Made by a program: the position numbers and the translations under genes. Shown piece by piece: positions 15,801 through 63,091 of a DNA stretch of 64,000 bases. Source of the DNA: Periconia sp. R9002 (Eukaryota > Ascomycota > Dothideomycetes > Pleosporales > Periconiaceae); the NCBI GenBank assembly GCA_023627715.1, contig JAMAHW010000007.1:558001-622000 (forward strand). The letters are read 5' to 3'. The notes beneath the pieces are model-generated. The model was given only the letters and a program-made list of their open reading frames with translations, was not told where the DNA came from and ran no database searches. Position 1 is the first letter of the stretch. Each line of letters begins with the position of its first letter.

Positions 15801-18800
15801 ATGGAGTTCGAGGTTGGCGACTTCGTCAAAACGGCCAACAACCGGCAGGGTACTGTTCGATACATCGGAGGGGTGACGGGGAAACCAGATATTTGGGTCG
15901 GGTTGGAATTGGATGGGCCTGAAGGGAAGAACGATGGATCTGTTCAAGGCGAACGATATTTCGATTGTGCCCCTTTACATGGCATATTCACCAAATATTC
16001 AGATATCACACAGCTGATTCAAAGTGCATCGATGCCAGCACCGTCACCGTCACCTGCTCCACGGAAGGCACCCTCGAGGCTCGGTGCAAAACCCCCGGCA
16101 AAAGCTCCTGCAACGCGACCACCCTCCACCACGACTACAAGAACGCAACGGCTATCGAGTGTTGGCTCAGCTTCTGCTGCCGCTGGAACAAGATCGCCGA
16201 CCAAACCAGGCTCAAGACTTTCGGGGGTTGCGTCGCCAACGAAGCCACCTCCACGACGCCTTTCTGGAGTCGGGGCCAGTGCTGCGGCCGCAGCCGCCAA
16301 ACACCCTACACAAACGCGGCCCTCACTCAGCCAGACGCGATCACCAGCTGTTGGTACGACAAGACCTACATCGCAATCCGCGCGTCCTTCAGGTGTCAGT
16401 GCTACAAAATCTGCCGCGCCGCAACCATCACTTACCAAACGACAATCGATCGGTGGGTCGTCTGCTGGAGGGGTCCGGACTGGTCTTACTAGAAAACTTA
16501 GCGCTACTGGGTCCTCTACATCGTCTGTAGGTGCCGCAGCACGGAATGCAGCCCCGAGCTCTACAACATCGGTGGCAACTTCCAAAACGCCCAAAGATCC
16601 GGCATCGCAAGCATTGGAAACTAGGGTCCGACAACTCGAGAAGCAGCATGCTGAACAGCAGGCTACCATTGAAGAGTTGATGCCTTACAAGGCAAAGTCG
16701 GAGAAACACGAGGCACTCGCATTGAAAGTCTCGAAGAAATATCAGGACGTACATCAGGAGCTTTTAGAGGCAAAGCGCGAAGCTGCTAGTGCTAAGGCAG
16801 AATCCGAAAAGGCGAGAGAGGAATTTGAGATCAACCTCGAAAATGCAATTCTGGATAAAGAAACGGCAGAAGTTGAGAGAGACCAGCTTTTAGACCAGAC
16901 GGAAATGCTGAAGGCCACCATCGAGGAGCTTCAACTAGACAAAGAAATTTATGAGGCGGAAGCGGAAGCATCGCTTATCATTGACGAAAATATGTCAGAC
17001 GAACAGGCACAAGCAGTGCACATACGTAAATTGCAAGCAGAGAATAAACGACTCCGTGCGGTCATTATCGACTTCAGAGATATTGATAAAGAGCGACAGG
17101 CAGACACCAAGAGGCTTAGGCATGAGCTCGAAACTACAACCGAGGCTGCCGAAGAGAGTGCGAAGCAGTGTACTGAATTGAGTCTCAAGGTTGAGCAACA
17201 CGAGTCTACTATCACCACATTACAGGAACAATTGGATGCCAACAATGAATGGGAGGAGATCCTCGAAGATGTCACTCAGCGAGCGAACAATTTGGAAGAG
17301 AAGAATATGCGACAATCGCTCGAAATCAAGGAGCTTGAAACAGTGAATGAGGTCAGCACCGAGACCATCGCCGAATATGTAGAGTTCACAAACGATTTGC
17401 AAGCCGAAGCCAGTCTTCGGGAGACAGAACTTGCGGAATTGTCCAGAGAACTGGAGCAGGAGCGCATTCAGAACGCGCAGAAGGATATGACTTTGGCTAA
17501 GTATAGTGAAGCATTTGCAGAGTTCCAGCACCAGCTGCAGGATCAAGATATGCAACAACTCATGAGTGAAGAGAGGGCACAGGGTATGACGGACAAGTTC
17601 AACAAGATGATGGATCTACACCGCACACTCCAAGCAGATCGCGCCAAAGACACGGCTAAGACAATCGAGACCGAACTCACGAAACTGTCGGAGCAGGAAG
17701 CCCGGGAAGAACTGGAGATCCTGAAGAACTATCTGCCCGAGACTTCGACTGACTACATGGATAACTCATTACGCACCTATTTCAGAGCAAAGAAGATTGC
17801 TTACAAGGCCTCTTTGATCGGTTCCGTGCTGACAGGCATGGAAACGTTTACAAACGAAGGGACCGAAAAGGTTTTGACCAATGTTTATCGACACGACACC
17901 GTACACCACCTCGACTACATCCGAAGCCATGGTGAGCACTTCGTAGCCACGCTCGCGAACTGCACGCTGGAGCAGTTCAGAAAGGCCGTTACAGAATACG
18001 AAGATATTTCCGTGGTAGAAACAACAATTGACCGCACGCTAGACAATCTCAAGAGGGATGAGCTGAACATGAAGGATCTTTCAGAGTCCATTCGTGGGAC
18101 CGATAAGATCATGCGTGGTATTACCTCAATCTCGCAGCGCCTTTCCAGTAACCGGCCGGACAACCATCTCGTACTGTATGTCTCACTGCTTCGGCCAAGT
18201 CTTGAGCGGATCCGGGCTTCGTTCGATGCAGTAAAACAATACACACAGCTGGTTGCCGACTTCGAACCAGAGACTGAAGACCGCCTTGACGCTCTCGTCG
18301 AACGGCTCCGGAAGCCTCAAACTTCTGCCTTGGAGTGCATTGCCGTTGTCGGGAAGCTCAGCCAAGCTCTTCTCACTCTCCAAAACGATGATCTGTATCC
18401 GCAGTTCCCGTCCGGTGCGCAAGAAGTGTTGGAGCTCAGCGACAACTTATCATCTTATGCAGACAAAGCTCATGAGTTCACGAGACAAGTGATAACTTTC
18501 GATCCAAATGACGAGGATGAAACGCCGTCTGTCGACATTGACGAATTGACAAGCACTATAGACGATGCCATGAATATCTTTTCGCCAAAGGATATTGATG
18601 GTCTGCTTAAAGACATCAAGAGCAACGTCGCGCACTGGTTCGAATATGCATCTATCTTGAATAACACTGCTGAGATAGAACGTCTACCCTCACCATGGAT
18701 TGTTCGTGCCCAAGAAATCGAAGCCAGCAAGAAACACGCCATCGATTCCGAAAAGAAACTCCAGCTCCTCACAGCCGAACATCAATCAACCCTCATTCAA

Positions 18801-19502
18801 ATCCGCGAGCGCGAAGAAATCATCGACACCAAGGATCTCGAAATCGAGCACCTGCGCGCCAAACACAAAGAAGCCGTCGCCAAAACCGAAGTCTTGGACC
18901 AACTTCAAAAGGAGCTCCAGGACGCCAAAACCGAGCAAGCAACGTACAAGCGCGAGATCAAGAAACACGTGGACGAAATCGAGCAGCTCAAACACAGCGC
19001 CGCCGAAATGCTGCGATCCTCACCCAACGCGTCAACACCCAACGCTGCCGTACCCACCGAGAACGCGACGCCCACCGGCACCGCGGCGACGCACAAGGTC
19101 GACAAAAAGAAGCCCGCGCTCGACAGCGAACTCGTTTCGGGATCGTTTGCAACCTTCATCAAGGCGCTCAAGCAGGAAAACACTTGGCTTCGTCAACGCG
19201 AGTATGCTACCTCCATGGCGCGCGCCGCCGAGTTCCTACCTCCGCTGCGTAAAATACCAGATTCGCGACACAAAGTGGCGAGGGCGGAGGAGCTTCTGGA
19301 AATGGCGTGGAGCTTACCATCTCCTTCATCGCCAGACGCTGTTGGCAATGAGGAAACACGCCCGTCAAAGAAGCACGGCAAGCCTTCTTCGCTACGTATT
19401 TACGATGCAGATGTCTCGCTCGTGGATGACTTGTGCTTTGTAGATCTCGAGCCTGTTGCGGATGGATTCGATGAGTTGTTACTTGATGAAATGATGAGGT
19501 AG
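15801..19502 (+). CDS. nip100: Dynactin large subunit p150Glued
   Basis: Single exon, 1233 aa. The protein begins with a CAP-Gly microtubule-binding domain (about residues 3-70), with VGDFVKTANNRQGTVRYIGG, WVGLELDGPEGKNDGSVQGERYF and HGIFTKYSDI covering the conserved Gly-rich core. Residues 75-270 are basic and rich in Ser, Pro, Ala and Thr, as in p150 proteins that have an extra microtubule-binding stretch. Long coiled coils follow (about 270-650 and 990-1090), with a globular central region between them. Length and domain order match fungal p150Glued, which links dynein to cargo and microtubule plus ends. The ATG at 15801 is the first in frame and directly precedes the CAP-Gly domain. Confidence 0.95.
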   Translation: MEFEVGDFVKTANNRQGTVRYIGGVTGKPDIWVGLELDGPEGKNDGSVQGERYFDCAPLHGIFTKYSDITQLIQSASMPAPSPSPAPRKAPSRLGAKPPAKAPATRPPSTTTTRTQRLSSVGSASAAAGTRSPTKPGSRLSGVASPTKPPPRRLSGVGASAAAAAAKHPTQTRPSLSQTRSPAVGTTRPTSQSARPSGVSATKSAAPQPSLTKRQSIGGSSAGGVRTGLTRKLSATGSSTSSVGAAARNAAPSSTTSVATSKTPKDPASQALETRVRQLEKQHAEQQATIEELMPYKAKSEKHEALALKVSKKYQDVHQELLEAKREAASAKAESEKAREEFEINLENAILDKETAEVERDQLLDQTEMLKATIEELQLDKEIYEAEAEASLIIDENMSDEQAQAVHIRKLQAENKRLRAVIIDFRDIDKERQADTKRLRHELETTTEAAEESAKQCTELSLKVEQHESTITTLQEQLDANNEWEEILEDVTQRANNLEEKNMRQSLEIKELETVNEVSTETIAEYVEFTNDLQAEASLRETELAELSRELEQERIQNAQKDMTLAKYSEAFAEFQHQLQDQDMQQLMSEERAQGMTDKFNKMMDLHRTLQADRAKDTAKTIETELTKLSEQEAREELEILKNYLPETSTDYMDNSLRTYFRAKKIAYKASLIGSVLTGMETFTNEGTEKVLTNVYRHDTVHHLDYIRSHGEHFVATLANCTLEQFRKAVTEYEDISVVETTIDRTLDNLKRDELNMKDLSESIRGTDKIMRGITSISQRLSSNRPDNHLVLYVSLLRPSLERIRASFDAVKQYTQLVADFEPETEDRLDALVERLRKPQTSALECIAVVGKLSQALLTLQNDDLYPQFPSGAQEVLELSDNLSSYADKAHEFTRQVITFDPNDEDETPSVDIDELTSTIDDAMNIFSPKDIDGLLKDIKSNVAHWFEYASILNNTAEIERLPSPWIVRAQEIEASKKHAIDSEKKLQLLTAEHQSTLIQIREREEIIDTKDLEIEHLRAKHKEAVAKTEVLDQLQKELQDAKTEQATYKREIKKHVDEIEQLKHSAAEMLRSSPNASTPNAAVPTENATPTGTAATHKVDKKKPALDSELVSGSFATFIKALKQENTWLRQREYATSMARAAEFLPPLRKIPDSRHKVARAEELLEMAWSLPSPSSPDAVGNEETRPSKKHGKPSSLRIYDADVSLVDDLCFVDLEPVADGFDELLLDEMMR

Positions 19503-32372: not shown

Positions 32373-35300
32373 TCACGCATACTGCAACCTCTCCTTTGAC
32401 CACCCAGGTCTGAGCTGCTCGGCATCGAACCTCGAACTCCAACTACTCTCGACCACATATTCTGTTTCCATGGTTATCTCCACCTGCGCAGCACCATCGT
32501 CTTCCTGAGCCCAAATACTCAATCCTACCGTATTCTCCCCCGAGTAATTGAGTATACCTGGTGGGACCGGGAACCTTCTCTCATTGCCCACAAACGGATT
32601 GAACCTTGCATATTGATATCCATTGATCCACAGAAGCACTCTGATGCTCTTTGACTTTGGTGCGTTTAACAAAAACGCAAATGAAGCATCCACGCCCTCT
32701 GGAACGTCTAAAGAGAACGTGGTACGGTAAAATTGAATCCCAGCCACCGCAAAACCTATAGAAGGGCTACTGCTACTCCAGGAAGAGTCATCGAAGCCAG
32801 GAAGGTGCCAGCCTAGACGCTCAGCTGAGAGGCCACCTTCGTTTAAAGGACCCCGCACAGGATCGAGCTGCGTGCGCTCACCATTGGCTTCCCCTGCGAT
32901 CTTCCACTTCGAGAAGGAGGGGCTATTGGAGCCTTCGAGACTAGCTGAAAGAATCCCACGCGGGTCAAGTGCAGCGGCTCGCAAGTCGTGTCCAGTGTTA
33001 TCCTGGGCAATAAGTAGGACGTTGGTACCGTTTGCGGCGAGTACTTCTGTGGGAAGAGGGAGGGTTAGATTTCCGACACCTACGGAAGAATTGCCGAGAT
33101 AAGATCCGAGGAAGTGGCCATTGACCCATGCACTCCACCCAAATGCCATTCCTCCCTGTACAGAGAGTCGTACGGCTGAAGCTGTACTGCCGGAGAAGTA
33201 GCCACGGAAGAGATGAAAACTGTTGTGAAAACCGTAATCGTCAACGTAAAGTACAGGAAGGGTGTCAGGTTTGGTTGGGTTAGGGGTTGTCGTATGGTTG
33301 GTCTCCACCCAGGCAATGCCCGAATCAGAATAATTCGCAAACCTTTCGGGGAGGCCATCGTGCACTTTCCATGTGGTCAAGGAGGGCGGGGTTAAAGTGG
33401 AGTTCAAGGCTGAGACTGTTGCTCTTAAGCTACCGTAAGAAGTCCTGGATGCATTCACACTTCTTCCGTTCCATTTGAGAGAAGTGGCGTTCAGTGGTGC
33501 GAAAACTTCGACAACAGTGTTCTTGCTCAGGTCTCCCTTCAACGAAAGAGTAGCACCGTCTAGAGAGGCGCTACGTACAAGGTAAGGACCATGCACAAGA
33601 ACTTCACAGGATATCAGCTTTGCATTCATTTATCCACTATTTTTGTGAACGCAGACTCACCAGATTTATCCACAGGGGCGAATGGATTGGCCTCTAGATT
33701 GGGCGCCCATAACAGATAACCAGTCGGTTTGTCGGTAATGACGACTTTCACACCGTTGTCGAAAATGATAACAGAGTAGCCATTAACCGCTTCAATAGAA
33801 ACAGTGATACCGTTCAACTCGGCGTGCAAAGTCGCATTTGAACGGCTTGCACTGTGTACAGCACCTTTACTTGCTCCTTTGACATGAAACTCAGCAGCCT
33901 CCCCTACACCTGTCCATAGGACCACCACTGGTGCACCATCAATTACAGCATACGTTAGAACTTCCGCCGTGGAATATGTTAACAGGCTATCACCAATGCT
34001 GAAGTCTGTAACGAGAACCTTGGATTGGTGGCCGTTCAAGACAATTGATCCGGCATGTTGAGGAACGGTTAAGTTCCCAGCCGAAGTGCTCACGTGAAGC
34101 CTGAAAGATTCAATTGACGACGAGGAAGACTGCTCATGAATTACGACGTAGAACGCCGCGTTCGTGTCCGGATTGCGCAATTCAGTCGCAGTAACGGCAG
34201 TGTTTGTGGTGTAAGACGTGCTGTTACCGATTCGATTCGTCACCGTGAGGTCTTTCGCCACCCTAGTGAACATTGCCAAATTCTTTGTTTCGTAGTACTT
34301 GCTGTCAATTTTTCGATTCTCGCTGATTGGACTTGAATAGTCGTAGCTGGTAGCCACCACAGGAGCGGCGAAGGCTCCCCAATTCGTACCGCCGTACATC
34401 ATATACAAACTGATGGCAGTAACACGTTGAGAAATGAGGTTTCTGTAAAATCTGCAAGGGTTCAGCGTCATATAGCATTAATGGGGGATTCTAGAACTCA
34501 CAAATTGGCGAAGTCGGCTCCAATATCCCCGGGGCATCCTCCCTCTGGTCCTCCCCAAGGGTTGTAGCTCCCACCTTGGAATTCTGGCAGAAATCTAGGC
34601 TGAGTATTGGACGTTTCGATGAAGTGATCGTAATAGTTTATGGTCTGATACGCCACATAATCGCCGTTCGTTCCGGTGCATTCGTCAAGGTTACAGGACC
34701 AGCAAGAGGGATAACTATCAAGCCCGGCTACATCAACATTCCCCGTAGCATTCGGGGCAAAGTCTTCCGACCAGGACTTTGTATTCATGTTCGGATCATT
34801 ATGAATCAATGGGATATCGATACCATTGTCTATGGCTGAATTCTCAAGGGCCTGCATGTACCTGCCCGCATATCCATTGGGTATACGATCGTTTGTGGTT
34901 GCGCCGGCGGTCCTGTTCCATTGCTCGCCATATTCGTTCTCGATTTGATAGACAAACGCATTTCCGCCATTGGTAACGAGGTGCTTGCTCGTGATTTCAG
35001 AGAATTTCGAAAAGTACGGTGTCCATGCTGTGGTGTATCTGGGATCGTCATCGCGCAGTTTACCGTAAGCACCTGTGGTAACCCACAGCGGAAAGCCACC
35101 AGCATTGGCTTCAGCATTCACATAGGGACCTGGTCGTACAATGACGTAGAGGCCAACACGTTTTGCGATCTCCAGAAGGCGTTCGAATCTATGCGCACCT
35201 GTCTCAAAATCGAGAGTCTCGTTGTTGGCACTGTGCCAAGCCCAGTTGCCGTAGAAAGCGACTGTCATAAGGTCAGCAAATATTGAAACAAGAACTATAT

Positions 35301-35614
35301 AGTACGAAATTTGTCGTGGGACAACGAGAAGTTTGAGCGACGGTGTACTCACAACTGGTAAAGCCAGCTGCTTTGATCTTTTCCAACAAATCCTCCCAGA
35401 CTTCAGGAACTGGAATCCTCCAGTAGTGCAGCTCGCCTGAGAAGACGAACAGCCTCTCCCCATTTATCTTGAAACTGTAATGATCCCACTGCACCACCTT
35501 ATTAAGGCCGTTATCATGAAGCGGCCATTGGCCTACATCGCCATTTGTCTGACCACAAGACCCCAATAAAAGAGCCGATAGCGTTAGCCACGACAGGGGA
35601 TGCAAAGCCCACAT
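32373..35614 (-). CDS. Secreted beta-galactosidase, glycoside hydrolase family 35
   Basis: Model: complement of 32373..33601, 33661..34451, 34502..35261, 35353..35614; 3042 nt and 1013 aa, the usual size of fungal LacA-type enzymes. The ATG at 35614 opens a signal peptide ([22 protein letters not shown]). The catalytic barrel contains [57 protein letters not shown] (acid/base Glu near 197) and [14 protein letters not shown] (nucleophile Glu near 297). MMYGGTNWG is a further family signature. The C-terminal part has jelly-roll blocks such as [16 protein letters not shown] and [14 protein letters not shown]. It should release galactose from plant galactans or xyloglucan outside the cell. The last intron has a GAAG acceptor. 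Confidence 0.93.
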
Positions 35615-36513
35615 CCTTGGAGGGATTGGCTCGAATTGCAACGGGTATGGGGTGAGAGAAGGTTTGTATAGCGACGCTGTGCTAAAAACATTGGATTAGA
35701 AAGGCCATACTTGTCTTCGTATATGTACTTTGTGTCGCTGGGAGCTTTTAGCCTCGGAGCCGGTATAGCGACGACATGCATGTAAGTACTAGCAGCTTAG
35801 CCCATCTAACGATATGCAGGATATTTACCGCTCTAGCTTCTGCGTACCTGACATTGAAGCTCTAGTGTTCTGGAAGTATACCATTCGGAAGGAAGGATTT
35901 GCATCGAAGGATGATATTCGTGCCCTGCAAGTTTCGAACACCATCTGATAATAAACCAATACATTGATACAAGCCGATTCATGTTCAATTTTCTCGATTA
36001 CTAAAGCATGTCCTCTGAGAATGTTTTATGAACATGTCCTTATCCAAATCGCGAAGCATGGCTGTGCAGGAAGTCCAGTCCTGCGGCATCGTCATGATTC
36101 CGGGGAGATGACGGCTGACATGTGGGGTAGCAGTCTAGCAAGTATCTGATCCTAGACGCAAGCAGATGCTTAAATTGGTGGAAGATTGACGGTGGGGAGG
36201 AACCGGGAAAATTCGAAGGAGTGCGGCAAGGGCAAAAACCCCCAAGTCCAAGGCTCGGAGTAAATGGAACCGATTTGTCGGTTCTTGGGAGCACTGCACA
36301 CTCGTGGAATAGCGCCTTGGTTAAGAGTTGAGCAGAGTGGGAAAACTTTGGGCATCCAGAAGGAGACACAGACATATTTTTATTCAATCCACACGCATTC
36401 ATGGAAGCTTTCAGTTTAGGTCATGTTTTGCGGCGATACAGCGAATGAATTTAACGCAAAGAAAAAAGATCACTGCTTCACTATGGTATACCCTCTTAGC
36501 TACATATAGGTGT
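35615..36513. other. Intergenic, no gene seen
   Basis: Upstream region of the beta-galactosidase gene, followed by the 3' flank of tRNA-Lys. No supported ORF. Confidence 0.5.
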
Positions 36514-36535
36514 GAAAAAAAAATACAAAAAGAAA
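36514..36535 (-). terminator. Pol III terminator of tRNA-Lys
   Basis: On the minus strand, two T runs of five and nine bases follow the tRNA 3' end within 7 to 28 bases. This is a normal RNA polymerase III stop. Confidence 0.75.
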
Positions 36536-36541
36536 GTTTGT

Positions 36542-36709
36542 AGCCCGATGCGGGGGTCTGGTAAACTGTTAGTTTGTGTTGTGATTCGAACCGCGCACCA
36601 GTTGTATGAACTTACCGAACCCGCAACCTTGAGATTGCTTAAATCAATCGTTTTCTGAGAAAGTGATCTCTATAAGAGTCTCACGCTCTACCGATTGAGC
36701 TAACCAGGC
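36542..36709 (-). tRNA. tRNA-Lys(CUU) with two intervening sequences
   Basis: Read on the minus strand, the gene has acceptor GCCTGGT, D-stem GCTC/GAGC, anticodon stem TGAGA/TCTCA with loop CTCTTAA (anticodon CTT), and T-stem GCGGG/CCCGC. The 3' acceptor strand is ATCGGGC with discriminator T. All seven acceptor pairs form, two as G-U wobbles. A 37-nt intron (36636-36672) sits after position 37, the standard place. A second 58-nt insert (36558-36615) splits the T-loop between positions 57 and 58. Together, 73 + 37 + 58 nt make exactly the 168 bp. An A box (TTAGCTCAATCGG) is intact; the B box is interrupted in the T-arm but a copy, GGTTCGAATCA, lies in the second insert. A TATATA-like element lies about 36-43 bp upstream and a T-rich terminator follows. 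It looks functional rather than decayed. Confidence 0.88.
36558..36615 (-). other. 58-nt spliceosome-like insert in the T-loop of tRNA-Lys
   Basis: On the minus strand it begins GTAAGT, has ACTAAC 11-15 bases before its end and finishes TTTACCAG, matching fungal pre-mRNA intron signals. Its ends can also pair (GGTAAGTT with AGTTTACC, counting one exon base). It contains a Pol III B-box match at about 36582-36592. Its exact excision restores TTCGACC, a standard T-loop. Confidence 0.8.
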
Positions 36710-36978
36710 TAGTGAATTGATGAGAGAATTTGGCTTTGTTCATAATATATAGCAAGAAAAAATTGGTTATTCACTTGAGGTGAGACGAATGTGGAAACGA
36801 ATGGTGCGAACATTTTGCATGTCAGCTGAATGTGCGGGAGTTCGGTGGCTAGTGCTCGCGTGCGTCTCCACAGTCAGGCCCCGGTAAAATAGGAACTGAG
36901 CCACTCGCGAGTCATAGCTCCGAACTTTCTTTCACTTCGCGAGCGTCTACCAACATCCGACACAACCCCGCCGCAAAC

Positions 36979-38336
36979 ATGGCGGACGAGGATGAAGACG
37001 TACCGAATCTACAGGCGCAAGATGCGGAGGAAATTGAAGATGAAGAAGGCGGCCAAGAGTACTTGCGCACATTGAATAAACTAGCGTAACCAGCCCGACG
37101 AATGTCCCATGCGTTTACAGTCAATGCTAATTCAGAGGTAGAGGCACGCCGCAGAACATCAGTTCCCTGAGTCTTCCCAAGCGCGGTGAGAAGGACTTCG
37201 AATCACATTCTACTCAGCTTCAAGTGTCGACCCTCGAGACCTCGCGCGCGGCAATGCACAGCGTTCTTTCCTGGCAGCGCACACATACCGTGAAGAACCA
37301 TGTGATCGCCATGTACCATGAAGCCTCGAACATGGCTTTTGTGGAAAAAGTGAAGACTTCGCTGTTCAATACAATGGGTCGATCGAAAGGGGGACAGGAA
37401 TGGCTGTTACCGGAGGAAGCCCTGTTCATGATCGAACGTGGGAGCTTAGACTGCCGGTGGCCGGTGAACACAGACGAGCACGAAGAGGAGGAGGAAAATG
37501 GGGGAAAGAAATTCGACATGCGATTGGGAGCCCCTATGAGTTTGCAAGGTGCCTATGCAGCCTTCCTGGGGTTTGAGGGCGGCGTTGGAGGAAAGCTGAC
37601 TATGGAGATGTATATTGTATATGCGGGATTGAAAAGAGCTGGCTATGTGGTCTTTCGACATGGAGATTGGGACGATGACCGCGCTGGATTAGAACATCTA
37701 TCTCCTGCAACCTCGGAAAAAGACACGGGACCGGGACTCATATCCCGCTTCTTCGCGCATCTCTGGCGGCGCATCACGCAGCCGATAACCACCATTCCCG
37801 CCGCAAACCTAGCCTTCGGGCCGCTCATCAAACCCGGTCTATACAGATCCCATGCCGACATTTACCGCCTCCTACACTTGATCCCTGCACACACCAAATA
37901 CACTCCACCGCACTTCATCCTCCCGCCCGACCCATCCAATCCCTACCGCATCCACTTCAACGTCTGGAAAACGTCCGGCAGCCAGAAATTCCGCAAGGCG
38001 AATCGCCCCCCACCTGATTTCCGCATCTGCGTCGTCAACGCTCGCGAGACTTCCATACCGACGGCAGCACAGCTGAATGACCTCTTGGCCACGGTGCCCG
38101 ACGACCCACCGCCGTCGACGAGCACCAACATCTTCCAGAAATTGAAGCACGGGAAACGCAATGCCATCCTTGCAATCGTGGATAACGGGATTCCGAGCTA
38201 CCTGACGCTAACAGATGCATCGTTTTCCGAGGAGAAGGTATATGAGAGGGGTGTGAAGGCGGGGAGGGGGAAAGGAGGTGGGAGAGGAAGAGGTGGTGCT
38301 CGAGGTCGGGGAAGAGGAAGAGGCCGAGGCAAATGA
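36979..38336 (+). CDS. sen54: tRNA-splicing endonuclease subunit Sen54
   Basis: Structural subunit of the SEN complex (Sen2, Sen15, Sen34, Sen54), which cuts introns out of pre-tRNAs. Exons 36979..37085 and 37136..38336 give 435 aa; the intron has GTAACC, TGCTAAT and CAG. After an acidic start (MADEDEDVPNLQAQ), LPKRGEKDFESHSTQLQ is the conserved entry of the Sen54 N-terminal domain. WLLPEEALFMIERGSLDCRW (about 125-144) is its hallmark. MSLQGAYAAFLG and YIVYAGLKRAGYVVFRHG continue the domain. The C-terminal part (FNVWKTSGSQKFRKANRPPPDFRICVVNARETSIPT) corresponds to the nuclease-like fold. The last 25-30 residues are almost only Gly and Arg (an RG-rich tail), which I do not expect in the family. 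The gene is divergent from the doubly interrupted tRNA-Lys, 269 bp away. Confidence 0.9.
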
Positions 38337-39068
38337 AGCGCATGGTCTCAATTTGTGATGCACGCTAGAATGACGCTGTATCACTAAAAAACCATACCGA
38401 ATCACAGTATGCTGCACAAAGACCATCATCATGGTCGTCCTTCGCGATCAAGAGTTCGATGCGGCAGTCGGAAACACTACAAACACGATCTCGCTGATAA
38501 GCAAGTGGTGCATCAACCTGGCATTCGACATTCTTGTCGAAATGGAAGCTAGAGACGCAATCACACATCGTCAAAGGCGAAATGATAGTTTCGGACGAGA
38601 TACCCAGAGGTCTCAGACACACTGGATGTATGTCAGATGGCATCTCTAACACCTCACTCCGGTATACTACAAGGAGCTTGGAAGATGATGAAACAACGTT
38701 GTATGTATCGGCGAAACGATGGTTATGTATTTACGCGGGTGTAAGGAAAATCTACATAGTGATTGAAGGAGTTTGTGGTACTGCGATGCCCGGCAAAAAA
38801 AAAAAAAAGAAAAAAAAAGTTTAATACGACCTATATCCATATTCACTGAATTTGCGTAATCGTTGTGCAGTGGGAGGGGAGGATTTCTCACGACTTATTT
38901 CAAAGGTAGTAAAGTCGATTCTTGTAGTTGCATAGGGTGGGGAGTCGTAAACCTCCATACATAACCACCATCATCATCTCCAACTAGGTATGTACAAGAA
39001 GAAAATCCAGTGAGAATTCCCCATAAATCATTATCTCCCTTATGAGAACAGCCATACTCAGCATTCCC
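38337..39068. other. Intergenic with A-rich tract
   Basis: 3' flanks of two convergent genes. An A-rich tract (two A runs broken by one G) lies at 38795-38818. No supported ORF. Confidence 0.5.
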
Positions 39069-40743: not shown

Positions 40744-43700
40744 CTATGAAGCGGTGACAAGAACGTAACTGTTCAAAAGTTAGTCTCTTGAGCATGAAAG
40801 ATTGGTGAAATGTAGTACGTACGAGGTAATCGCATCCATTCTCTCCTTGGTTAGCTTTAGTCCAACTTTGAGAAGTTCAGAAGCAACATCAGGGTGCTGT
40901 TGCTCGAGCTCTTTGTACTTCTGACGCGTGAGAAGCCAGGCCACTGAATCATTCTCGACTGCTACAGTCCTAAACACAAACAGTCAGTTCTCACCACCCA
41001 AAACATATTAGCAACTTAGATACTCACCCTGTCCGATCTGTCTCTGAGAAGAATGGAAGCTCTCCACACGTTGTACCCGGCAGTATGACTTCATAGTAGT
41101 TTCCTTGTTCGAGCTCATACTCTGCCCGGAAGCGCCCTTTTTCCAGAATGTAAAAGCCATTCGGCTCATCGCCGCGTGAATATAGCACCGTTCCCGCCGC
41201 ATACTCTTTCCGCTCAAAGTAGGATGCTGCCATGTGCCAAAAGTCTTCGTTCTTAGTCGATACATCTTCGAATGTTTGGAGCATAATTTTGATGGGCTGT
41301 GAGAAATTCTTCCACTTTGAGGGCAGCAGGATTACGGATTTGTCCTGGTCGGATTCCTCGAAAGATCCAGAATGACTACCCTGCTCACGGAATGTTGAGG
41401 CGGCAGCCAGATAACGCGCACCTCGCCGCGGCGAAGCAAAACCTGGGTCCAATGCACCAAATCCAAGCGATGAAGTAGGTGAGTCTGAAATTTCTCCCTC
41501 ATTAGAGCTGGATGTAGTATTACTGATAGATTTTGGTGGAGTGGCCTGTCGTTTGCGAGGCGGCGAGTTGCAATGCTTGTAAAAAATCTCCAATAACTCG
41601 TTTTCACAGCCTTCCAACGCAGTATTCAAGTCTTCAAAGACCTGTGGCGGAGGGCAGGCCTCATCTCCTCTTTCTTCGTCAAGTAAACCCACATTTTGGA
41701 GGGCTTGTCCGACCTTGGTTGTGAAAGATATTCCGGATATAATCATCTTGACGTCCCTGCGATTCAGAATTCGATTGATGCGTTGGAATCCCTCCGAGCT
41801 AGAAAAGTCAACATCGGCGACATGAGAAAAGTCGACGATGATGAAGCTGATCGGCTGTTTCTGGAATGTGTCTTCTTCGATTAGAGAACGCATGTACTCT
41901 TCGACGGACACGATGGTACCGAAGAACAGAAAACCGCTGAGTTTGATCACCCGTATTTGACCTCGTACTTTGTTGAGATAACGGCGATCGGCACGAGGAC
42001 GTCGCACGGTCGATTCGGCAACTTCGCCGCTATAAGTTGCCCTGACAGCTGAGACGCGTGATGATTGGACGACATAACTGACGCAGGCAAGAACGATCCC
42101 GACGAAAATACCCACAACAAAATCGTAGACGCCCATGACAAGAACGATGGCAAGAATAGTGAGGTACTCTAGCTTATGGCATTTGCCAAAGGTGTCCCAG
42201 ACAGCTTCCTCCATGAGCTCAATGCCAAGCAAGAATATCAAAGCGCCAACAAGGCAGATGGGAATATATCCGATCATGGCTGGCCCTGCTATCCAAACTC
42301 CAGTGGTTGCGGCAGCAAGCAAGCCGCCAGCGAGTCGACTGTCCCCACCATTGTCAATGAACATGATACTGTTGGCATATACAAGATAGTTCTGCCATGA
42401 TTAGCCATACGACAAGTGTTAGGAGTGTTGGGAACATACCTGAATGCTGCCGACACATCCCGAGATGGTGTTCGAGATGCCGTGCGCAATCAGTTCGCGA
42501 TTAACATTAACATTATCCTCTTTGACGGCAGCTCCAAGAGCGGGCACATTAATAGGCACATGAATAATGCCGAAGAAAGAAAGAGCAAACATGGTGGGGA
42601 TTGTGCTAACAAGAGCCACCCCATCGATCTGACTGAATTCTGCGAATTTTTGTTAGCGACGTCACGCATAGACTGATTTCGAAACTTACTAAAATATGAG
42701 TAAAACCTATAAAATGGGACGCCAGCTTCTGGTTGTTCGAATATCCATCCTGCGTTACGGACAGGCTCCAAATCCAAACGTAGGATACCCTTGACGATGA
42801 TGTAGAAAACAGCAAAAACACCGATAAAGAAGGCAGGAAGAACAACCGGGCTTTTGATGTACCGTCGCATGACTAAAATCACAATAGCTAGAAACAAAGG
42901 TAACATCCACAATGCTACAGTGTCCTTGGCAAACAATTTGTGTAGCGTCGCCATATCGTAATTCAAATTCCCCTCAATGCGTGCTGATACCTCGATTCCG
43001 GTGACAATCAAGAAAAACCCCACGCCTCCGATGCAGCCAATCAGGATATGTCGAGGGAAGAAGCTCACTAGGTTTCCTAGCTTGAAGCCACCGAGTGCAA
43101 GGAAAATGAGCCCAGTGACGATGGAACTCAAACAATACGACGTTATCGTTGTAGCCATGATAGCTTCCGCGCTCTGCCCTTTCATTTTTGCCATGATGGA
43201 GTATGCCATCTTGTGGAAGAATGGCACTACCTCAATCATTTCGGACCCTACGCCTCCTCGAAAGACCGATAGGCCAAACGAATAGGACAGCTGCGCGACA
43301 ATGCAGCTGACGAAGAAAATAGAAATACCATCAGGACCCGTTTGACTGAATATTGGGCTCCCGAGAGGAAACAGAATATAACCGTAGGAGAGAGCATCGA
43401 GAATGTTGAGCAGCAATCCGAGGAAAACGGCCGATGACATCTGCAGGCTTGCCACGAGTCCTTTCGCAACAGCATCCTTGGTGTAATTGTTCGGATTCGT
43501 TGCTGACCGTCGGAGTCGTATCAGGTGCTCATGGCCTGCGGCGATTGATTGCTTAATTCGGCCCTCGAAGCCCCGAGAGCTTGGTGAAGAGGCGAAAAAG
43601 CCATTGTGCTTGGGTAGAGAGTGCGTTCGACTGAGCCTGGTCTTGGGGAGGAGCGGAGTTTCTTCGTTATCATCAACAATGATTTCCGGGAGTGAGGAGG

Positions 43701-44232
43701 AAGGCAGCTGCGAAAAGGTGCCGGAGCCGGGGTGCCCAGCTCGCCTTTCAGGTCCAATTACGGTTTCGGGGCTCTCGGGCTCCTCATCTATTGTGATAGT
43801 TTCCGCATCATACGAGTCCAGCGACGACCGCCCCTCTGGATCTGTGGGTGTTGCACGCCGTGAGGAAGCAAAGTCCGAATCCACCGCACTTGTTCTCCTC
43901 CGCGGGCCCTGGTAGGCCTCTGATTCTAGCGCATATGACGCAAGCTCCTGTGTTCTTTCCCTTACGCCATGCGATGAGTACTGAGGGGCCTCGGCGGCGG
44001 ACGACGATGCCTGGTGGGCAAAGGACCGAATGGGGTTTCGTTGGGAGTATGAAGAAGACAGAATGCCGGAGGTGTTGGCTGAGGCTCGAATTGGGCGCGA
44101 TCGGGGTACTGTGTTAGAGCCGTGGTCGTCTTGCTGCTCGAATTCGGCATCGGTGACGGTGTCGTTGGTAAAAGGAAGGTGATTGTGCGCAGAGCTGTAC
44201 TCTTCGCGACGCGGAAGTAGACGCGAGGGCAT
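40744..44232 (-). CDS. SulP-family vacuolar-type transporter with STAS and cyclic-nucleotide-binding-like domains
   Basis: Model: complement of 40744..40768, 40823..40969, 41028..42391, 42440..42639, 42690..44232 (1092 aa, in frame). A Ser-rich cytosolic N-terminus of about 250 residues ends with [19 protein letters not shown], which contains an acidic dileucine-like sorting motif. The SulP core starts at about 265 ([32 protein letters not shown]) and runs through 10 or more membrane segments. A STAS domain follows ([26 protein letters not shown] ... [23 protein letters not shown]), then a cNMP-binding-like fold ([35 protein letters not shown] ... [23 protein letters not shown]). This order matches yeast YGR125W/Vsb1, linked to vacuolar storage of basic amino acids. 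A sulfate permease role is therefore less likely. Confidence 0.9.
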
Positions 44233-55970: not shown

Positions 55971-58785
55971 ATGGAAAACTCTACGAAATACGTTTTGCTC
56001 ATCGCCCTGGCGTTGCTGGTGCTTCTACCAGGCAAAGCTGAGGCCTTTGGTGCGGGCAACATCGCATCCATATCAGCCATTGAAGGCAAAAATTGGCGTC
56101 ATGGAGATATCGAGGACATGTTGGCCACGGTCGCGTGCTTGAGGGGACACAAATGGAAATCTATGATGATCAAGGTTTGCGCCTCTCGTCCGCTTGCTAT
56201 ACTTACGCACGCTAATAGTCACCTAGCGAGTATACTTTGGAAACTGGCTTCGCGATTATTCTCAGGTAGGGAAACTGCTGTCTAGAATAGTATGTTGGGG
56301 AAGCCTAACAATTTGGACAGGCCGTTGATACTGCAACCTTGAGCAAAGTCCAGGTGAGTGGTTAGCTGTGCCGGTGCCGTGTTTCCGAGTACTAACGAAC
56401 GCTAAGGGCGAGACAATTCGTATCCTTGTATGGGTGCTGTCTTTCATGTCCTTTGGGTATGCTACTGGCGAGTTCGAGGTCACTGCCGATCGACTTGGTG
56501 TTTACAGGCCAGAGGAACATATTGGTACGTTGCCCAGCTTTCGACTGGCAGCTTCAACTAATACGCCATAGATAACCCCGTAAGAATCAAGGCAAACTCT
56601 GTGATGTTCTAACAGGAAGCTCATTATGACTAGAAAGATTATGCTGATAATGTGGACGCGAGGAAATTTGACCCCCGACTTCGTGGGCCAGTTTCAGACG
56701 CTGAACTCGCTATTGATTATCAGACGGGTATAGACCATTTCTCCATCACATGTATCGAGCAAGAGTTGACTTGAAAAAGGAATGAAGAATTACATTGCCA
56801 ACGAACAGGGAGGTTGGGCTACTTCGGCAGGCTATGTCAAATTCTCCTTCGCTAGGGCCATTCATTATGGACGCCTGTACACGCACGGCGGATCAGGAGA
56901 TCGCCACAACGAAGACCATCTTGCCGAAGCGCTTCGATGCCTTGGACAAGGTCTTCATTGTCTAGAGGACTTTGGGGCTCATACTAATTACACTGAGCTC
57001 GCTCTTCGTGAACTTGGCTACCACAACGTATTCCCACACACCGGAGTACAAACCCAGATCAATCTTCATGGCAAGCAAGTATTTCCGCTGGTTACTGGAA
57101 CATTTGGTGGTGTCGACTTCTTTCACTCAGTCTTGGGCGAAGCTACCGACCACTTTACGCAGACGCAGGTCGATGAATCGGAGCTTGCTCAAATGAATGC
57201 CACGCTTCAGAACGCGACGTGCGATAACAAAACCAAGCGGGGTGGAGAGGGTGGCGACCCTACTTCATCACTTTGCTCAGCCCTTGGGCAGATTCCTGGC
57301 ACTGGGGGTCTCGTCCAAGAAGCCTTGAAACTCAAAGCGTCATCTGATGAACAAGCCGCGGCCAATGCGCGCAGTGAGTACAATAATACTCGAGCTGAAC
57401 CGACATTCGATGCTCCCCCTGGTTCAGTTGGTGGTCCACCGGGTCCGGACATCCCAGGGACTAACACAGACCCTGCCACCATCGTCCCCAAGATCTATCC
57501 CATACTAGAATTTCGAGATAAGGTTGTCAAGTCCATTTCCGCCATCATTTCAAAGATCCCAGGTCTTGAGAAGCTAATCGAGACCATCACGGAGCGTGTC
57601 ACCATCTTCGTCTTCGCTTTACTTGCTCCTTTCATCATGCCGATCATCAACACGGCGTCGAAGCAGCTTAAGGAGGGCTCATCCGCGGTTGTTGAATCAG
57701 CAGCAAAGCATCAATTCGAGGTCTGGACGAACCCGCAGTCTACTGATCCTACCCACAGTATGCTATCAAAGGATCATTTCTCAAACATCTTGAATCAGCC
57801 AGCTGGACAGGTAGCTGTTGCTATATTGCAATACGTCGCTCCCCGTGTGGTACGTAAAATCTAATTCCACAGTGAATCACTAGTGACATACTCGAAAACG
57901 AAGATTTGCTAACTTTGCAATCTCAACACTAGATCTATGCCTGGGATCATACTGATGTACCCGTCGACCAAGTCCTCAATGACTGCATATCCGTTTTCCA
58001 CCACCCTGCCATCCGTAACAACAACAATGAAGCACACCGAAACATGTTTGCTGTTGTCGAAAAATGGGCCCACAGCTACCACGGCAAGGATCTCAATGAC
58101 ATCCTTAGCTCTGAATCTGTAAAGGCTGGCAAGAACCACCTAGCCTCTAACGATCACTCAAGCGGTAAGTCGGAATTCCAAAGCAACATTAGAGCAGTCC
58201 ATTGTCGGAATATCGTCCACTAACCCCAAAATTTCATGTTCAGGCCACGGACACGGTGCGGCAAATGCAGGATCTTTCATGGGTCACAGCCATGGTGGAC
58301 ACTCTCACGGCGGCGGACAACCCCAAAGTAGCGGCGGACAGTCTCATGGAGGTAGTGGTGGCGGCGGCAATGGTGCAGCAGGTCTTCTGGGCGGCTTCGC
58401 CGGCAAGATTCCCGGTCCATTGGGCGGCATACTCGGCGGAACCCTTAACTCCTTCAGCAAGACCCGCGACGGTCCTGGCGACGACGACGATGGCCCACTT
58501 ACTGGTACATCCTCCCACTCACAACCCACGCATGACTGGGGCTCCTTCCAACCATACCAGTCCCAGTACGCTGGCGGTGCGCCTCAGGGGCAGTATCAAG
58601 GCGGCCAGGGCGCGGAGCCTGCCTATGCGGTACCGTCTGCTTATCAGCAGGGCTACGAGAACTATGGCAGTGGTCCTGGAGGATACCAGCAGCCTCAGCA
58701 GGGAGGCTACGGCGGGGGTTATGACCAAGGTGGTCCACCTTCTGGTGGAAGGCCCTGGGGACAGGGAGGTAACTCGGGTTGGTGA
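55971..58785 (+). CDS. het-c: HET-C family heterokaryon incompatibility protein
   Basis: Nine exons: 55971..56174, 56227..56265, 56321..56353, 56407..56524, 56572..56579, 56634..56727, 56780..57849, 57933..58164, 58244..58785; 2340 nt, 779 aa. Signal peptide MENSTKYVLLIALALLVLLPGKAEA is followed by FGAGNIASISAIEGKNWRHGDIEDML, then FGNWLRDYSQAVDTATL and GLHCLEDFGAHTNYTELALRELG, all conserved in HET-C. A hydrophobic segment near 490 (ITIFVFALLAPFIMPII-like) and a Gly/His/Ser/Gln-rich tail (GHSHGGHSHGGG to PWGQGGNSGW) complete the usual architecture. In Neurospora, allelic differences in het-c trigger incompatibility after hyphal fusion; which allele group this is cannot be told here. The fifth exon is only 8 nt, which is exceptional. 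Confidence 0.93.
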
Positions 58786-62986: not shown

Positions 62987-63091
62987 AGGACTGAACCGGA
63001 GTCGAACCGGTGACTTCGGGAAGGCGGTTTTGGATGTTGTGCTTCACACAACCCACTGCAGTCCTACACTCTACCACTGAGTTACCAGTCC
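62987..63091 (-). tRNA. tRNA-Cys(GCA) with one canonical intron
   Basis: Minus strand: acceptor GGACTGG pairs with TCAGTCC (one G-U). The D-stem is ACTC/GAGT, the anticodon loop starts CTGCAG (anticodon GCA), the T-arm is ACCGG TTCGACT CCGGT and the discriminator is T, the cysteine identity base. A 33-nt intron (63023-63055) follows position 37. The anticodon stem has one A-C mismatch and one U-G pair. The B box (GGTTCGACTCC) is perfect, and a TATATATT element lies about 40 bp upstream. Confidence 0.85.

Follow-up and report, generated by a model that had tools for sequence, protein, structure and literature searches.

Candidate spliceosomal introns in RNA polymerase III tRNA genes of Periconia sp. 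R9002

Results

A tRNA-Lys(CUU) gene interrupted twice

The analyzed window, a stretch of 64,000 nucleotides (C7:558001-622000 in an assembly of 42.9 Mb and 267 contigs), carries a tRNA-Lys(CUU) gene with two interruptions, one in the anticodon loop and one in the T-loop. The features of the locus, in window positions, are the following:

36542..36709, minus strand: tRNA-Lys(CUU) gene (pre-tRNA span without the trailer), with exons of 37, 20 and 16 nt that are the same in five copies
36746..36751, minus strand: TATATA element, 42 nt upstream of the tRNA-Lys(CUU) gene
36636..36672, minus strand: canonical tRNA intron of 37 nt at 37/38, its length the same in all five copies
36558..36615, minus strand: candidate spliceosome-type intron of 58 nt in the T-loop at 57/58 (between G57 and A58), GTAAGT...ACTAAC...CCAG
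36610..36615, minus strand: putative 5' splice site GTAAGT of the 58-nt intron (GTAAGT in 3/4 Lys inserts, GTACGT in 1/4)
36582..36592, minus strand: B-box-like GGTTCGAATCA within the 58-nt intron, with GTTCGAATC invariant in 4/4 Lys inserts
36568..36573, minus strand: branch-site motif ACTAAC, 10 nt ahead of the end of the 58-nt intron
36558..36560, minus strand: putative 3' splice site CAG of the 58-nt intron
36515..36531, minus strand: T runs (T5, T9) resembling a Pol III terminator

The coordinates, lengths and motifs that the original prediction gave for the insert at 36558..36615 proved exact to the base on re-reading. Removal of both introns leaves 73 nt, the minimum-energy fold of which is the standard cloverleaf, and the earlier claim of a 73-nt tRNA with complete stems is thus borne out. 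The split gene scores 25.8 bits with the Rfam tRNA model, under the cut-off of 29, and an ARAGORN scan of the whole window found no tRNA, missing the window's own tRNA-Cys as well. In positions 34000-39000 of the window, searched with Rfam at E values up to 1, the tRNA match was the only one and no group I or group II intron was found. A self-splicing intron of either group was rejected because the inserts described here, at 50-59 nt, are too short; the Rfam scan covers the region of the Lys copy in the window.

The window also contains a tRNA-Cys(GCA) gene (62987-63091, minus strand; a relative lies at C59:23941), the anticodon intron of which is 33 nt long, and several protein-coding regions, i.e., a dynactin p150-like protein (15801-19502) with 94% identity to a Periconia macrospinosa protein and 82% to one of P. 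digitata, pieces of a GH35 beta-galactosidase in separate frames (32373-35463), a sulfate permease with STAS and cNMP-binding domains (41024-44232), and a Het-C protein (56782-57864). The two dynactin identities, for 15801-19499, point to a Periconia-like dothideomycete.

The tRNA-Lys(CUU) family

We searched the genome with the 169-nt Lys gene and scored the best candidates, so that the number of copies is a lower bound; all DNA comparisons are within this one species. There are at least five tRNA-Lys(CUU) copies, four of which match along the whole query and one only up to the insert. The insert at 57/58 is present in 4/5 genes, with lengths of 58, 59, 59 and 53 nt (C7, C50, C9 and C9, respectively); the remaining copy, C14:603052, has the same exons without the insert, which it may have lost or may never have had. 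All five copies, the insert-free one included, are identical at 73/73 exon bases; their anticodon introns of 37 nt share 86-97% identity, and their 80-nt flanks on either side only 24-47%. Identical exons within diverged flanks indicate, at the level of DNA comparison, that the five genes are dispersed copies in which the tRNA sequence is held fixed. TATATA or ATATAT lies upstream of all five genes, at -42 to -69, a T run of at least five begins 8-10 nt past the gene end in each, and none of the five has TTTT inside the gene. With its complete cloverleaf, conserved exons, TATA element and T runs, tRNA-Lys(CUU) has the sequence characters of a functional gene.

Compared in pairs, the four Lys inserts are 85-96% identical over the donor, B box, branch site and acceptor versus 19-55% in the remainder, and invariant columns number 22/26 in the signals versus 3/33 elsewhere; because the signal columns of the alignment were picked by eye on these same four sequences, the figures describe a pattern and are no independent test. 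Retention of signals while the remainder drifts is one criterion for a U2-type intron, and it is the pattern seen in the four Lys inserts, to which the criterion was applied, the Arg and Val inserts described below being single. Given the common site and the common signals, the four Lys inserts probably share one origin.

The insertion cuts the native B box of the Lys(CUU) gene into GGTTCG and ACCCC. All four Lys inserts contain GTTCGAATC followed by (A/G)CA, which, by the B-box consensus, we take to be a B-box core. No other invariant stretch of these inserts is as long as GTTCGAATC, and GTTCGA alone occurs in 0.7% of shuffled Lys inserts. Since the insert splits the gene's own B box, the intron appears to bring a replacement, i.e., a substitute Pol III promoter element for the displaced box.

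Inserts in tRNA-Arg(CCU) and tRNA-Val(AAC)

Two further tRNA families contain an insert of this kind. (i) The Arg(CCU) gene at C21:171737, the sole Arg(CCU) gene found in the genome survey, has a 50-nt insert at 53/54 (GTAAGT...TCTAAC...CAAG), the 3' junction of which keeps AGTTCGAGTCC unbroken in the DNA as a B box. (ii) In a Val(AAC) gene at C36:224324, the insert is 55 nt long and lies at 25/26 (GTACGG...ACTAAC...CCAG), a position outside both Pol III promoter boxes; the gene has a normal 37/38 intron as well. Four Val(AAC) paralogues are without the insert, and two of them (C60, C2) share the exon sequence when compared by eye. The acceptor AAG of the Arg insert is a weaker one and the donor GTACGG of the Val insert is off consensus at +6, both of which count against the spliceosomal reading. 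A further point against it is that neither the Arg nor the Val sequence, once freed of introns, has the standard cloverleaf as its minimum-energy fold, although the stems can be written by eye.

With the B box contiguous in Arg, the 25/26 site outside both boxes in Val, and a B box inside the intron in Lys, the insert sites as read from the DNA all leave the Pol III boxes whole or come with a substitute for one. Neither the Arg nor the Val insert matched the Lys inserts, and both lie at other positions, which makes at least three intron gains likely, one each in Lys, Arg and Val.

The two single inserts bear on the possibility that the Lys insert is kept merely for its B box, as part of the promoter, the splice-like motifs being incidental. 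That GTTCGAATC is the most extended invariant run would agree with such a role; however, neither the Arg nor the Val insert has a B box inside, yet both have the same layout of donor, branch site and acceptor as the Lys inserts, and an unremoved insert of 58 nt would wreck the T-loop. We regard this possibility as extremely improbable.

They also bear on a second alternative, according to which copies with an insert are silent or in decay and always retain it, the tRNA being made from intact copies. One intact Lys(CUU) gene and four insert-free Val(AAC) genes are indeed present, and AAG codons could be served by two Lys(UUU) genes together with the insert-free Lys(CUU) copy, so that the need for the insert-bearing Lys genes is unproven. 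A decaying pseudogene beside intact copies had been named at the outset as the finding that would speak against the proposed second removal step. There is indeed an intact copy (C14:603052), but none of the four with an insert shows decay: their exons are retained at 73/73 in 4/4 genes, each has a TATA element and a T-run terminator, and the splice signals persist in inserts that have otherwise diverged. Gene conversion could keep the Lys exons identical without every copy functioning; it would leave the conserved signals in the diverged inserts unexplained. Moreover, the only Arg(CCU) gene found is one that bears an insert, and real decay in this genome looks otherwise, as at C18:410600, where only a mutated 5' half of a Gly gene is left. 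Silence of the insert-bearing copies is therefore judged very improbable.

Splicing signals and the choice of machine

All six inserts, 50-59 nt long, have GT-AG ends (donors GTAAGT in four, GTACGT in one and GTACGG in one; acceptors CCAG, TTAG and CAAG) and a CTAAY branch motif 9-11 nt ahead of the end. The chance of a GT start, an AG end and CTAAY 8-12 nt before the end was estimated as 4.7e-5 from 1.8 million shuffles of the six inserts. As a local comparison, we scanned the protein-coding frames of the window for introns, demanding GTRNGT, CTRAY, YAG and a length of 45-85 nt, and obtained seven candidates that restore long frames, 55-83 nt long, with CTRAY 8-19 nt before YAG; because motifs and lengths were required by the scan, it tells that such introns occur here and is not a measure of how typical they are. 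By their sequence, the six tRNA inserts fit the class of these coding-gene intron candidates.

Atypical tRNA introns are known from other lineages, and the inserts could instead be oddly placed tRNA introns that are removed by SEN, by a relaxed variant of it, or by another tRNA-processing nuclease, as in Cyanidioschyzon merolae or archaea. In the accessible parts of the respective papers, C. merolae is described as having atypical D- and T-arm tRNA introns, one of them at 53/54, with the mechanism called unknown (PMC9602550), its non-canonical tRNA introns are discussed as mediated by the bulge-helix-bulge (BHB) (PMC3978253), and those of archaea are tied to relaxed BHB motifs and endonuclease types (PMC4033280). 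As far as these accounts go, the likeness is in the D- and T-arm positions, in some genes having several introns, and in the shared 53/54 site, whereas the difference is that the six inserts here are without a BHB and have full spliceosomal signals. A four-pair central helix of a BHB was found at the junctions of none of the six inserts: 1 or 2 of 4 pairs form at the exact junctions, and at most 3 when one-base shifts are allowed. RNAfold does join the ends of the window Lys insert through GGTAA/TTACC pairing, but in a comparison by eye the three remaining Lys inserts lack this pairing. The positions 57/58, 53/54 and 25/26 are not the SEN-type position 37/38, at which the separate 37-nt Lys intron does sit, and removal by a SEN-like enzyme leaves the recurring GT, CTAAY and AG without a reason. 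Such removal thus seems very improbable, and we favor the spliceosomal reading.

Survey of nuclear tRNA genes

Among 77 nuclear tRNA genes read, six contain an extra insert: four Lys, one Arg and one Val. The 77 comprise 73 nuclear places called by ARAGORN on the supplied loci, Arg and Val included, and the four Lys genes that it misses; inserts were sought by eye and with ARAGORN, without a dedicated model. Outside this count stand the tRNA-Gly remnant on C18 (L115, C18:410600-411000; a mutated 5' half without the 3' half), an AT-rich match (L060), the mitochondrial-type contig C137, pattern places without a complete tRNA, and the matched Leu places C30:120343, C35:61550, C1:321796 and C3:183642. 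A Ser gene at C65:241453, cut by the contig end, was uncalled. Two of the Leu places are unusual, C30:120343-120464 for its long span and C3:183642-183680 as a lone 5' half of tRNA-Leu, and either could contain another insert. ARAGORN also reported long anticodon introns in Gln(UUG) (L044, C22:351577-351711; 62 nt), Arg(UCG) (L056, C25:245554-245675; 47 nt) and Gly(GCC) (L150, C37:136121-136229; 36 nt).

ARAGORN missed 4/4 insert-bearing Lys genes even when introns were permitted; it also truncated the Arg(CCU) gene and labelled the Val(AAC) gene Leu. A genome-wide search with RF00005 scored 63/1247 first-look candidates and missed, among others, the tRNA-Cys of the window, for which reason it was not used to call isotypes missing. 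Yeast tRNA queries returned tRNA-Cys genes only, matched through the window's own Cys in the query.

The pattern RGTTCRGTAAGT, designed for further 57/58 introns, has 18 places versus 46 in the reversed control; those with a pairing T-stem, a branch motif and a tRNA context are three Lys genes and no others. One place, L073, passed the stem filter and was rejected as a 57/58 intron for want of a branch motif. Of two A-box patterns, one has 60 places versus 102 in its control and the other 61 versus 52; with counts near or under the controls, many of the matches are due to chance. From these 121 places, 40 were fetched, 34 for the first pattern and 6 for the second, and they include 15 ordinary Asp, Pro, Val and Gly genes with no extra insert. 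The viral contigs searched gave no match, and the prokaryote genome contigs gave eight, in records labelled bacterial. A search of the genome with all six inserts recovered, at its sensitivity, the six known places only. An introner-like element was rejected as the source: with no near-identical copy or relative beyond these six places at that sensitivity, the inserts do not derive from an abundant element of that kind.

Discussion

What the DNA shows directly is the build of the genes, the conservation of the signals, the identity of the exons, and inserts that recur in three tRNA families at sites sparing or replacing the Pol III promoter boxes. The explanation that very probably accounts for these findings is a U2-type spliceosomal intron in a Pol III tRNA-Lys gene, with an intronic B box replacing the split native one and two splicing machines together yielding a normal tRNA. 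The Pol III transcript had been predicted to depend on the spliceosome, or on some other second step of removal; the present results support that view: exons intact at 73/73, TATA and terminator elements, signals maintained in diverged inserts, and inserts in two other tRNA families. In the pathway that we envisage, Pol III would transcribe the Lys gene from the upstream TATA element, the A box and the B box carried by the intron; the spliceosome would take out the 58-nt intron as a lariat, probably before folding of the T-arm and 3' end processing; SEN and ligase would take out the 37-nt anticodon intron; and the two removals together would produce the normal 73-nt tRNA-Lys(CUU).

Textbook tRNA splicing is protein-only, carried out by SEN and ligase, and spliceosomal splicing is mostly tied to Pol II. 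The closest precedent is in the U6 snRNA genes of fungi, notably Schizosaccharomyces pombe, in which a spliceosomal intron resides in a Pol III gene and carries a B box used as internal promoter. The Lys genes would resemble S. pombe U6 in both respects, and differ in that U6 is a component of the spliceosome, whereas the Lys, Arg and Val genes encode tRNAs. In the present genome, none of the four U6 matches read (L061-L064) has an intron; a fifth match, at C6:611800, is outside this count. The U6-like gene on C107 (L064) has a 3' part unlike the others and adjoins AT-rich DNA.

Introner-like elements of Dothideomycetes are a case of recent spliceosomal intron gain in this same fungal class, to which the gains proposed here would be akin; the difference is that the six inserts have no further genomic copies. 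For intron gains in fungi, the accessible text of PMC11889510 cites Burgt et al. 2012. The same text, as far as accessible, cites Cubero et al. 2000 and Bhattacharya et al. 2000 for ascomycetes whose nuclear 18S rRNA genes contain spliceosomal introns. Its own 18S intron class, 355 bp long and found in Pleosporales including Periconia, is characterized there by a GT start and an AG end and was found by RT-PCR to be removed. To judge from that portion, the introns of the two cited studies are spliceosomal and interrupt the gene of a structural RNA that Pol II does not transcribe, as we propose for the tRNA genes; they differ in residing in a Pol I transcript, in the host RNA, and in having no promoter role. 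Nucleomorph genomes have many spliceosomal introns, and the accessible portions of PMC4494063 and PMC4035089 mention none for tRNA genes. Our literature search, which lay mostly outside subscription journals, found no earlier account of tRNA genes with spliceosomal introns. Introns of this kind are known, and their combination with Pol III tRNA genes appears to be new.

Taken over the three families, the sequence evidence makes it likely that spliceosomal introns entered Pol III tRNA genes several times independently, that they survived only where the internal promoter was spared or replaced, that transcription of Lys(CUU) depends on an intron that is later removed, and that one and the same tRNA passes through two unrelated splicing machines on its way to maturity, as tRNAs with spliceosomal introns in Pol III genes would need to. 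Natural tRNA genes with both kinds of intron would allow a direct test, within a single small RNA, of how transcription, folding, end processing and two routes of splicing are ordered. It should be noted that standard tRNA finders can miss such insert-bearing genes. A B box borne by the intron would show a way for an intron to be drawn into the promoter of the very gene that it interrupts, which would limit the ways in which it can be lost.
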